From Dehalococcoidia bacterium (GTDB taxonomy: Bacteria > Chloroflexota > Dehalococcoidia > DSTF01 > JALHUB01): DNA of 64,000 nucleotides. Both the position numbers and the translations under genes were made by a program. Of the stretch, positions 9,546-61,267 are shown piece after piece (position 1 is the stretch's first letter; every line of letters begins with the position of its first letter). Under the pieces are notes generated by a model, which did not search any database, was not told the DNA's origin, and worked only from the letters and a program-made list of their open reading frames with translations. The stretch covers positions 1 through 64,000 of the forward strand of contig JASEFU010000003.1 of the NCBI GenBank assembly GCA_030018455.1, in the 5' to 3' direction.

Positions 9546-9559
9546 CACGCGGTTACAAT
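9531..9559 (+). promoter_or_regulatory. Internal promoter for rplJ-rplL
   Basis: TTGAGC (9531-9536) and TACAAT (9554-9559) are separated by 17 bases. The element overlaps the 3' end of rplA and places the start site near 9566, immediately before the L10 leader. Confidence 0.65.
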
Positions 9560-9561
9560 AT

Positions 9562-9704
9562 CAACACGGTCGCCACAGACAGCGGGTCCCGTTCCGGGTT
9601 AAAGCAGCCCGCCGAGGCGAAGAGGAACCGAAGGGCGCTGGTGAGGCGCTGGGGCCTTTGTCTGTGACGGCAAGGGCCTTTTTGTATGACAGAGGGATGC
9701 GGAG
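9562..9704 (+). promoter_or_regulatory. Ribosomal protein L10 leader with attenuator
   Basis: The untranslated leader before rplJ carries the hallmarks of the L10 leader element. CACAGACA (9574-9581) can pair with TGTCTGTG (9661-9668). Alternatively the latter region sits inside an 8-bp hairpin (GGCCTTTG with CAAGGGCC) followed by TTTTT (9681-9685), an intrinsic terminator. In known L10 leaders the L10(L12)4 complex binds the kink-turn part and adjusts rplJL expression. The GCCGAGGCGAAGAG stretch in the middle resembles the conserved binding core. Confidence 0.8.
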
Positions 9705-49539: not shown

Positions 49540-49569
49540 TTGACATCGGAAATAGAGAAAGATTATACT
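49540..49569 (+). promoter_or_regulatory. Promoter of the riboswitch and zinc-ribbon gene
   Basis: TTGACA (49540-49545) and TATACT (49564-49569) are separated by 18 bases, near-consensus. Transcription would start around 49576. Confidence 0.75.
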
Positions 49570-49594
49570 AACGACAGGGTTCAACTTGTCCAGC

Positions 49595-49722
49595 TGGTAC
49601 GTATCGCACAGGCCCGTGCCTAGTGAACGGGGGATCCGATTTCCGCAGGGGTGAATCTCACGCCAGTGAGTAGGGCGCCCAACCCTAACCCGATAGCTAA
49701 CCCCGAGAGGCAGCGAAGGGAT
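49595..49722 (+). promoter_or_regulatory. Cyclic di-AMP riboswitch (ydaO-yuaA class)
   Basis: The leader holds the conserved core of the ydaO riboswitch: GAACGGGGGATCC (49625-49637), GGGGTGAATC (49649-49658), AACCCTAACCCGATAGC (49681-49697) and TAACCCCGAGAGGC (49698-49711). ATCGC near 49602 can pair with GCGAAG near 49713 to close the outer stem. It lies about 50 bases before the zinc-ribbon ORF. A hairpin (CCAG 49727-49730 with CTGG 49740-49743) exposes AGGAGG in its loop and could be part of the expression platform. Confidence 0.9.
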
Positions 49723-49766
49723 TTGGCCAGCAGGAGGTTCTGGTAGATTTCTGTGCCGAAGGAGAG

Positions 49767-49979
49767 ATGATGGAGACGACGCTGCCCAGAGTCTGTCCCC
49801 GTTGCCGGGGTTCCATGATCGCTGAGAGAGACTGGTACGGTACCTATAGCAGTTGCCTCTCCTGCGGCTACGTGCACGAAGCCGTATCGCCGCCTGCAAT
49901 CGAGCTTCTGGAAGAAGACGAAACCGGCCGCGTACGGCAGCGCCGGCGCCAGCCCTCGCACGGAAAGCTGCGGCTATAG
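49767..49979 (+). CDS. Small zinc-ribbon protein under the c-di-AMP riboswitch
   Basis: The 70-residue protein has two CxxC knuckles (CPRCRGSM at 10-17 and CLSCGYVHE at about 30-38), which form a small zinc ribbon, and a basic C-terminal tail (RVRQRRRQPSHGKLRL). The start is ATG 49767 or 49770 after AAGGAG. Zinc ribbons of this size often bind nucleic acid or protein. No named family is recognised. Its control by cyclic di-AMP is the notable feature; usual targets are cell-wall or potassium genes. Confidence 0.75.
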   Translation: MMETTLPRVCPRCRGSMIAERDWYGTYSSCLSCGYVHEAVSPPAIELLEEDETGRVRQRRRQPSHGKLRL

Positions 49980-51122: not shown

Positions 51123-51899
51123 ATGGAAGGCTCAACAGCAAAAGGTCCAGGCGCAGGGAAGGTAGGCCGCACCGACGCGTCGAACTGGCGGCGCCCGGGC
51201 GCGCGAATTCGGGTCCTCATAGTCGACGACCACGCCGTCCTGCGCCAGGCGCTGCGGCTGCTGCTCGACGCACACCACGAAGTAGAGGTCATCGGCGACG
51301 TTAGCAACGGCCGCGAAGCGGTCGAGGCGGTGGAAAAGCTGCAGCCGGACGTAGTGCTAATGGACATGGTCATGCAGGGCCTTAACGGCCTGGAAGCGAC
51401 CCGCCAGATCCGACGGCGGGTGCCCAAGACCAAGGTGTTGATGCTGACCGGGTACATGGAGGACGACCAGATCATGGGGGCGCTCAGGGCAGGAGCCTCC
51501 GGGTACGTGGTCAAGAAGTCCGACGTGACGGAATTGCTGCTGGGCATCCAGGCCGTGCACCGCGGCAACACCTACTTCAGCTCCGCCATATCGGACAACG
51601 TTGCCATAAGCGAGCTTCTGTGGCAGGCGCAGAAAGGGGACGGCAAGGCGGGTTTCGAGCTTCTCACGAGCAGGGAGCGCGAAGTCCTGCAACTCATCGC
51701 CGAGGGATACTCCAACCAGCGCATCGCCGACGAGCTGTTTATCAGCGTGAAGACAGTTGAAGCGCACAAGGCGCACATTATGAGCAAGCTCCACGCGCAA
51801 AACCGCACCGACCTCATCCGGTACGCCATCCGGAAAGGCATCGTTAACCTCGAGGCCGCGCCGGACCTCGCGTCGGAGGAACCTCGAAAGGCTGTTTGA
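51123..51899 (+). CDS. NarL/FixJ-type response regulator
   Basis: The 258-residue protein has a non-conserved 28-residue lead and then a receiver domain: acidic pair in VLIVDDHA, phospho-acceptor Asp in VVLMDMVMQGL, Thr and Lys in MLTGYMED and YVVKKSD. A LuxR-type DNA-binding domain follows (LTSREREVLQLIAEGYSNQRIADELFISVKTVEAH). An obvious partner is the hybrid kinase at 55028, but distance prevents certainty. Confidence 0.93.
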   Translation: MEGSTAKGPGAGKVGRTDASNWRRPGARIRVLIVDDHAVLRQALRLLLDAHHEVEVIGDVSNGREAVEAVEKLQPDVVLMDMVMQGLNGLEATRQIRRRVPKTKVLMLTGYMEDDQIMGALRAGASGYVVKKSDVTELLLGIQAVHRGNTYFSSAISDNVAISELLWQAQKGDGKAGFELLTSREREVLQLIAEGYSNQRIADELFISVKTVEAHKAHIMSKLHAQNRTDLIRYAIRKGIVNLEAAPDLASEEPRKAV

Positions 51900-51917
51900 G
51901 AAGAGTCTGCGACGAAG

Positions 51918-52214
51918 ATGAGCGCCCACGGCAGTGAACCCGGCGACGGAGGAAGATGGATGCCGACTCCCCTGGAAACGGACAAGACAAGCATTGAGCT
52001 GCAGGGCATATTCCTGCGCCGGCTGAGGCGCCTGCTTCAGTTGCGCAGAGACCACGAGGGGCAGCTCAACATCGAAGGTATCCGGCTGCTCGACCGCTCC
52101 ATCTACGCCACATACTGCGATTGCATCAGCGTGGGCGCGCCGGAAGCCGCCCAGGAAGTGCTGCGTCGCTTCCCCGTTACCCTCTCCGCTTTCCCCGACG
52201 AATTCAGTCTGTAG
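51918..52214 (+). CDS. Protein of unknown function (98 residues)
   Basis: The 98-residue protein has a helical middle (ELQGIFLRRLRRLLQLRRDH) followed by an alpha-helical end (DRSIYATYCDCISVGAPEAAQEVLRRF). It follows the response regulator by 18 bases and is probably cotranscribed. No family is recognised. Confidence 0.5.
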   Translation: MSAHGSEPGDGGRWMPTPLETDKTSIELQGIFLRRLRRLLQLRRDHEGQLNIEGIRLLDRSIYATYCDCISVGAPEAAQEVLRRFPVTLSAFPDEFSL

Positions 52215-52308
52215 TCGCGGCACCCCCCGCAGCGCCGCACCCCTTCGACGGGCCTGTTTTCGCCCTTCTTCTTTAAGGGCAATTCCCTCTGATCTTTCCC
52301 GCGCCGAT

Positions 52309-52316
52309 GCCGATAA
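52309..52316 (+). promoter_or_regulatory. Sigma-28-like -10 element before csrA
   Basis: GCCGATAA (52309-52316) matches the sigma-28 -10 consensus at all eight positions. The expected -35 (TAAA) at 15 bases is weak (TGAT at 52290-52293). The start codon of csrA is about 90 bases downstream. The element also sits in CCGA-TAATG-TCGG, a small inverted repeat. Confidence 0.45.
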
Positions 52317-52405
52317 TGTCGGTGCAGGCAGAAAGGTTCTCGCCGCACACTCCAAGAAGCCGGCGGCGGGCGAGACGGACACAATCGCCTGCTCAGGATG
52401 AGAAG

Positions 52406-52603
52406 ATGCTTATTCTGACCCGTAAGGTCGACCAGGGGATAGTAATCCAGGGGAACATCGTGGTGAGGGTCCTCGGCATTGAGCGCGACCGCGTGAAGCT
52501 GGGGATCGCCGCCGCCGAAGAAATCGTCATCCTCAGGGAAGAGCTCTGCCAGGACAACGGTGGGAACAACAGGAGAGCGCCTCAGAGGGCGGCGAACGGC
52601 TAG
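52406..52603 (+). CDS. csrA: Carbon storage regulator CsrA
   Basis: CsrA binds GGA motifs in mRNA and changes translation or stability. The 65-residue protein starts MLILTRKVDQGIVI and has VVRVLGIERDRVKLGI and a typical AAEEIVILREE, all matching the CsrA family. The start is ATG 52406 after AGGATGAG; an upstream frame to 52307 lacks homology. Neither fliW nor flagellar genes are close, though csrA usually travels with them. A sigma-28-like factor lies 1.3 kb downstream on the other strand. Confidence 0.95.
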   Translation: MLILTRKVDQGIVIQGNIVVRVLGIERDRVKLGIAAAEEIVILREELCQDNGGNNRRAPQRAANG

Positions 52604-53883: not shown

Positions 53884-54666
53884 CTACGCCGCTTCCGGCA
53901 TGTCTTCCATCAACGCCGCCCGCAGCCGGCGCAGCGCCCGCTGACGAAGCTGCGACGCCCTCGATTCCGATATGCCCAGCGCCTGCCCGATGCTCTTCAG
54001 CGATTTCGACTCGATGTAATAGAGCTGCACGATGACTCTCTCCCGTTCCGGGAGGTTGCTCACCGCTTCCTGAAGCTTTGTCTTCACCATCGAGCGTTCC
54101 ACCACCCGATTCGGGTCGATGCTCGGGTCCTCGTCCGCCATTTCGCAGAGCCTTTCGCTGTTGCCGTTTACCGCTACGTCCGCCAGATTGTCGAGCGACA
54201 CGATCCTGACGTTGCAGTGTCTAAGGGAGTTCAGGAACTGGGGCAGAGGCACGCCGAGCCGTTCGGCGATCTCCGCCTTGCTTGGGCCCCTGCCCAGCTC
54301 GTTATGGAGAGCGCTTGTCGCCGCCTCGATGTCGGAGGCGAACTTCTGTAGAGAGCGCGGCAGCGGATGCGCGGCCCGCAGCGCATCGAGGATGGAGCCG
54401 CGGATGCGCGGCAGGGCGTAGGTCGAGAACTTCGCCCCCTTGTTCGCGTCAAACGAATGGTAGGCCTCTATCAGCCCCTGCACACCGCAGCTCACCATAT
54501 CCTCGTACTGAAGGATGGACGAGCTGCTCGCCCCGATGAGGATCCGGTTGACCACGTGGCGCACCAACGGCATGTAATCACGTACAAGCTGGGAGAGAGC
54601 GGTTTCCTGGTCGTCAGGGGGAGAACTGCCGATGCTGGCCGCTGTGGCGTCGGCTTGGGAAGGCAA
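53884..54666 (-). CDS. Sigma-28 family (FliA/WhiG-like) RNA polymerase sigma factor
   Basis: The 260-residue protein has region 2 (VRDYMPLVRHVVNRILIG, then YEDMVSCGVQGLIEAYHSFD and TYALPRIRGSILDALR), the characteristic WhiG/FliA element, region 3 and region 4 (LPERERVIVQLYYIESKSLKS). TTG start 54666 follows TTGGAGGTG. In other bacteria this type drives flagellar, chemotaxis or sporulation genes. Flagellar genes are not in the window. A sigma-28-like -10 sits upstream. Confidence 0.93.
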   Translation of the reverse strand: MPSQADATAASIGSSPPDDQETALSQLVRDYMPLVRHVVNRILIGASSSSILQYEDMVSCGVQGLIEAYHSFDANKGAKFSTYALPRIRGSILDALRAAHPLPRSLQKFASDIEAATSALHNELGRGPSKAEIAERLGVPLPQFLNSLRHCNVRIVSLDNLADVAVNGNSERLCEMADEDPSIDPNRVVERSMVKTKLQEAVSNLPERERVIVQLYYIESKSLKSIGQALGISESRASQLRQRALRRLRAALMEDMPEAA

Positions 54667-61170: not shown

Positions 61171-61267
61171 TGGCGGGAGTGGGTAGGAGTCGAACCCACC
61201 CAGGACAGCGTAACTGCCCCGCAACGGTTTTGAAGACCGCAGGGCCCACCGGGACCCATCCACCCCC
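61171..61267 (-). tRNA. selC: tRNA-Sec (anticodon TCA)
   Basis: The 97-base tRNA has an 8-bp acceptor stem (GGGGGTGG/CCACTCCC), a 6-bp D stem, anticodon stem GCGGT/ACCGT with loop CTTCAAA giving TCA (anticodon at 61233-61231), a long variable arm, a T-loop TTCGACT and encoded GCCA. The 8-bp acceptor and long variable arm are features of tRNA-Sec. It means the organism decodes UGA as selenocysteine. Confidence 0.93.

Follow-up and report, generated by a model that had tools for sequence, protein, structure and literature searches.

A c-di-AMP riboswitch aptamer ahead of a small zinc-ribbon gene in Dehalococcoidia, with a predicted pseudoknot/terminator switch

The leader and its gene

The window, a 64,000-nucleotide stretch from a metagenome-assembled genome (MAG) of the Dehalococcoidia (Chloroflexota), contains a c-di-AMP (ydaO/yuaA) riboswitch aptamer in the 5ʹ leader of a gene. 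The leader has its own promoter, and about 40 nt 3ʹ of the aptamer is an open reading frame for a small zinc-ribbon protein, here called ZnR70 (Table 1). The match to the Rfam covariance model is clearly over the gathering score of 38 bits (E 3.7e-09 for the whole window), and the core elements GGGGUGAAU and CCCG(U/A)CAGCUAACC and stem P1 are all found. A chance match is ruled out by this cut-off together with the conservation described below. The first-pass annotation of the sequence had placed a ydaO core here, with coordinates correct to within ~12 nt, and had named a near-consensus promoter, which is borne out. Promoter-like sites around the leader number two, against 0.2 ± 0.5 in shuffles, and transcription is predicted to start at ~49576. 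The sister genome has TTGACG-17-TATAAT at the equivalent position. A TCACAA word, similar to a Rex half-site or to a fixed start of transcription, recurs just past the −10 box upstream of ZnR70 (L035, L038, L040, L060).

Table 1. Features of the ZnR70 leader and gene in the window
Feature	Position	Strand	Basis
Sigma-70-type promoter, TTGACA-18 nt-TATACT	49540-49569 (-35 49540-49545, -10 49564-49569)	+	11/12 consensus bases
c-di-AMP (ydaO/yuaA) riboswitch aptamer RF00379	49607-49727	+	cmscan, Rfam 15, 51.9 bits
Shortened pseudoknot-loop remnant CGCCCAA	49676-49682	+	Alignments; orthologues have GCCTTTC
C-to-T change in CCCG(T/A)CAGCTAACC core	49694	+	Alignment column 221
3ʹ tail GAAGGGA (pseudoknot strand in relatives)	49715-49721	+	33 relatives: at or adjoining terminator 5ʹ arm
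Shine-Dalgarno AGGAG	49760-49764	+	Sequence
ZnR70, 69-residue zinc-ribbon protein	49770-49979	+	Orthologues, AlphaFold; CPRC/CLSCG knuckles, acidic helix, QRRRQPSHGKLRL tail

The same annotation had described a 70-residue double-CxxC protein. The open reading frame (49767–49979) is real and conserved, and its start needs only a small correction: the first ATG, at 49767, adds one Met to give 70 residues, and we prefer the second because orthologues begin there and the spacing from AGGAG is correct. ZnR70 is 97% identical in the sister genome. Invariant columns in a 29-row alignment (A1) are P7, C10, C13, G15, E20, D22, C30, C33 and G34, and the C-terminus is near-invariant. AlphaFold predicts a confident zinc ribbon (pLDDT ~87–93 across residues 11–40), a short acidic helix and a disordered tail. 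The modelled fold has the marks of a zinc ribbon, with two CxxC knuckles (C10, C13, C30, C33) on a three-stranded β-ribbon (strands 16–22, 25–30 and 36–39).

No Pfam family reaches its cut-off on ZnR70 (best RUBY_RBDX, 25.1 against 26.5; Zn_Ribbon_TF, 18.8 against 29), and all NCBIfam matches are far under theirs. A Cas12f zinc-finger-like match from PADLOC (E 0.015) was disregarded. Fold comparison returned Thermus ZifS, Rpb9, TFIIB and topoisomerase-I ribbons, all weakly. ZifS (PDB 8yoz) ranked first in Foldseek (E 0.07, prob 0.99; VIA-align Z 3.8), and TFIIB was the best PDB sequence match (E 0.12). ZifS and the Rpb9/TFIIB/TFS-type ribbons share with ZnR70 two CxxC knuckles and a β-ribbon, a similarity that is weak and not significant, but no counterpart of the acidic helix and QRRRQPSHGKLRL tail was found among them. 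The ribbon resembles those of RNA-polymerase and TFIIB type, and the fixed basic tail suggests that ZnR70 may bind nucleic acid or a large machine.

Downstream of ZnR70 the window continues with DUF3870, a small protein, a LuxR response regulator and CsrA. The intervals 51123–52603 (+) and 53884–54666 (−) hold the LuxR-type response regulator, the small conserved protein, CsrA (PF02599) and a FliA/WhiG-like sigma factor, the last assigned by reading the sequence. Elsewhere in the window are a ribosomal protein L10 leader (RF00557, 48.9 bits, 9555–9693, +) and a selenocysteine tRNA (RF01852, 74.7 bits, 61175–61267, −), and hence the host may make selenoproteins.

Conservation of the pairing and its c-di-AMP setting

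With a limit of E < 1e-19, ZnR70 orthologues were detected in 32 of the 99 relatives, and in 25 of those 32 genomes Rfam detects an aptamer directly upstream on the same strand. To avoid circularity, an independent covariance model was trained on 26 aptamers of other genes, with no ZnR70 leader included. This model finds an aptamer just upstream, on the same strand, at 74 of 80 named orthologue loci, ending ~20–110 nt before the ZnR70 start codon. The 8-kb named loci contain no other aptamer above E 0.1. Six named orthologues are without a detectable aptamer (L069, L080, L099, L102, L110 and L147), although in L069 a wrecked one is still legible. In L052, an AdoCbl riboswitch (1281–1426, −) lies just 3ʹ of a ZnR70 orthologue that has no c-di-AMP aptamer. 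Since the 74 pairings were found by the independent model, the association is no accident, and a pairing unique to the host genome is ruled out. The leader is therefore conserved upstream of zinc-ribbon homologues, and the original proposal, that a c-di-AMP riboswitch controls a zinc-ribbon gene, is supported.

The host genome has three c-di-AMP riboswitches and a single diadenylate cyclase (DAC domain). Among the 99 relatives, 46 have a DAC domain and 53 do not, and the domain is present in all 32 genomes with ZnR70 (hypergeometric P 2.5e-15, kinship uncorrected). Strong ZnR70 matches are confined to Dehalococcoidia in a sample of 301 Chloroflexota genomes, and the family extends to the cultured Tepidiforma flava. 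For the family, it is reasonable to regard ZnR70 as a putative effector of c-di-AMP signalling.

Other genes in Dehalococcoidia also follow c-di-AMP aptamers. These include a Glyco_trans_2_3 (GT2) protein of 540–630 aa in 20 genomes (L063, at C4:160243 of the host's own genome, L066, L208 and 17 further loci), trehalose-6-phosphate synthase (OtsA) at 17 loci in 14 genomes (among them L015, at C1:496817 of the host's own genome, L003 and L156) and a TreT-like trehalose synthase at two loci (L164, L212). Small CxxC zinc proteins unrelated to ZnR70 were also seen directly behind aptamers: one group, Zn2, at L157, L016, L005, L010 and L169, and others at L166/L174/L194, L007 and L009.

Could the riboswitch serve a longer operon, in which ZnR70 is an incidental first cistron followed by an ABM-like gene, a LuxR-type response regulator and sometimes FlbD-MotA-MotB? 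Such genes do recur: of 81 loci, 35 have a small ABM-like gene behind ZnR70, at ~+318, and 28 have a LuxR response regulator downstream, and FlbD-MotA-MotB follows in ~11, in lineages other than that of the window. However, the downstream genes differ by lineage while ZnR70 is constant directly behind the aptamer, and DUF3870, which comes next in the window, begins 207 bp on. We regard the operon explanation as decidedly unlikely, and treat ZnR70 itself as the target.

Pseudoknot, terminator and the window's own copy

In the crystallised ligand-bound aptamer, the loop CUCCUUC and the 3ʹ tail GAAGGAG form a pseudoknot (PMC5393176). The same pairing covaries in Dehalococcoidia leaders: 90.7% of cells are paired, with 29 two-sided changes, as against 0 of 500 shuffles as high and 53–70% in slid versions. 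An intrinsic terminator of U-tract type precedes the start codon in 33 of the 74 ZnR70 leaders (for example in Tepidiforma flava, L111 3767–3990). In all 33, its 5ʹ arm overlaps or adjoins the 3ʹ pseudoknot strand, the sequences being related and hence not 33 independent events. The arm starts +22 to +24 past CTAACC in 32 leaders and at +17 in the other. The GT2 leaders share this fused design, with the arm at +20 to +23 in 13 of 13 terminators.

Known relatives of the aptamer are built differently beyond the core. The Bacillales ydaO/kimA copies (RF00379; Priestia plasmid copies L222, L224 and L225) have the aptamer core and pseudoknot position of the ZnR70 leaders and, like those that bear terminators, an intrinsic terminator between aptamer and gene. 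However, the kimA terminator lies at +51, 3ʹ of the tail, whereas those of ZnR70 and GT2 lie at +20 to +24, and the kimA target is an APC/K+ permease rather than a zinc ribbon. Across four Firmicutes copies (kimA and one ablA) the 5ʹ arm is at +48 to +51. Terminators also lie 3ʹ of the tail in four of six OtsA leaders (+39 or later) and in six of seven Zn2 leaders (+32 or later). An OFF-type layout, with the terminator apart from the pseudoknot tail, is not found in the ZnR70 family, where all 33 overlap or abut. The pseudoknot-loop sequence goes with the platform type: VCCUU occurs in 49 fused and no separate leaders, and YUYYUU in two fused and 18 separate leaders.

In folding calculations, which leave out co-transcriptional kinetics and the pseudoknot itself, forbidding the tail strips ~5–16 kcal/mol from most fused terminators; the tail was assigned automatically, imperfectly for some leaders and with implausible pairings in several rows. 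Antiterminators that overlap the tail in separate-type leaders run mostly in the expected direction, five of 23 individually at P≤0.05, and lend weak support to OFF logic there. The longest common substring between the loop and the terminator 3ʹ arm (4.25 for ZnR70, 3.3–4.0 otherwise) gave no clear difference and was dropped. One relative, L078, hinted at pairing between the tail and the region of the ribosome-binding site (AGGGCAC/GUGCCCU). We do not claim it as a switch, since in the calculations tail masking frees no Shine-Dalgarno sequence and leaves the window leader unaffected.

Among ZnR70 aptamers, the copy in the window scores lowest (52.6 bits against 57–102 with a class-specific model); the sister-genome equivalent scores 98.4 bits where the window copy scores 52.6, and 99.8 where it scores 52. 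The window copy is without the variable hairpin, a loss that would not alone be disabling because the crystallised aptamer also lacks it. Only ~3 pairs between loop and 3ʹ tail are possible. At 49694, where the window copy has T, 69 of the 70 ZnR70 leaders in the alignment have C, as do all 26 from other genes. Among the 38 columns with 93% conservation, this copy differs at two; the second departure, U in CCUAACCCG, is common among other Dehalococcoidia leaders. No terminator follows the tail in the window leader, and masking the tail there leaves the predicted Shine-Dalgarno accessibility unchanged.

No other copy in the set is as eroded, so the host genome may have weakened regulation, and the aptamer may be decaying or read differently. 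It is a serious possibility, though we stop a little short of favouring it, that the host aptamer is a remnant of a real family association, here ancestral, and that ZnR70 is expressed without c-di-AMP control. Besides the low score, the altered near-invariant C, the shortened loop and the absent terminator, there is precedent: the leader of G003 (L034/L069) is a recognisable wreck beside an intact ZnR70 gene, and some other orthologues retain the promoter only. Yet the core near the ligand is otherwise preserved and the score is over the Rfam cut-off, the missing hairpin has its parallel in the crystal, and single-base sequencing errors are possible in a MAG. It is the family, rather than the window copy, that makes the case for c-di-AMP regulation. 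If control persists in the host, it would act on translation or be residual, since most of the pseudoknot loop is lost. The nlpC riboswitch of Corynebacterium glutamicum is likewise terminator-less and proposed to be translational, as the window copy would need to be; its proposed mechanism has CTCC pairing with the ribosome-binding site, and by experiment it is an OFF switch of a cell-wall peptidase gene (PMC9960051).

Switch polarity and its meaning

What would the fused arrangement do? We propose that the aptamer leads a dedicated small gene, ZnR70, and that c-di-AMP from the single diadenylate cyclase would bind the nascent leader and stabilise the aptamer and its pseudoknot, pairing the loop (GCCUUUC in relatives) with the 3ʹ tail (GAAAGGC). 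Across the family, that tail serves as, or lies next to, the 5ʹ arm of an intrinsic terminator (GAAGGCC...GGCCUUUUUU). Because the strand is shared or adjoining, the two structures should be mutually exclusive, and high c-di-AMP should then permit read-through. The fused leaders would be ON switches if the ligand stabilises the pseudoknot, and ZnR70 would be a c-di-AMP-induced regulator. In the lineage of the window, where the terminator is absent, control, if any, would be translational or residual.

The literature presents c-di-AMP riboswitches as OFF switches for transporter, osmolyte and cell-wall genes. In the fluoride riboswitch, a ligand-stabilised pseudoknot opposes an intrinsic terminator to give an ON switch. 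That riboswitch, too, sets a pseudoknotted aptamer on a terminator platform (PMC11077080), and the ZnR70 leaders are like it in logic only, aptamer and ligand being unrelated. The polarity predicted for ZnR70 is opposite to that of the experimentally tested c-di-AMP riboswitches in the literature searched, all of which are OFF (PMC6488665, PMC9960051). An ordinary OFF switch would have ZnR70 made when c-di-AMP falls, at low K+ or high osmolarity, along with the trehalose-synthase genes. That trehalose-synthesis genes and transporters in Dehalococcoidia also carry the aptamer fits this explanation, and cotranscriptional terminator formation can escape simple energies. Nonetheless, we think it unlikely. 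In ZnR70 leaders the 5ʹ arm of the terminator coincides with the pseudoknot strand or lies beside it, and a pseudoknot stabilised by ligand should thus block termination. The separate layout expected of an OFF switch occurs in the leaders of OtsA, Zn2 and Bacillales kimA but not at ZnR70.

We conclude that an aptamer-headed ZnR70 under a ligand-ON, fused pseudoknot/terminator, with ZnR70 as a c-di-AMP-induced regulator, is the probable arrangement in the family. More tentatively, and as slightly less likely than not, we suggest a two-way regulon built on one aptamer class: separate-terminator OFF switches at trehalose synthase and the second small zinc protein, and fused ON switches at ZnR70 and the membrane glycosyltransferase. 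ZnR70 would then be a new c-di-AMP-induced regulator, probably transcription- or RNA-associated, present only where c-di-AMP is made.

The aptamer belongs to a known class; the zinc-ribbon target gene and the fused platform may be new. Neither was found in the literature searched, which did not take in Nelson 2013 or Block 2010, whose gene lists could include a zinc-ribbon target. No description of c-di-AMP signalling in Chloroflexota was found in the same literature. If the proposal is true, a pseudoknot strand has been reused as a terminator arm and the sign of the switch reversed, so that one aptamer class has opposite outputs. Such a sign-reversing platform would be a clean example, testable in vitro and in cultured Tepidiforma. 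The family-wide link to a small, uncharacterised protein whose presence follows that of the cyclase suggests a novel branch of c-di-AMP signalling in Chloroflexota.
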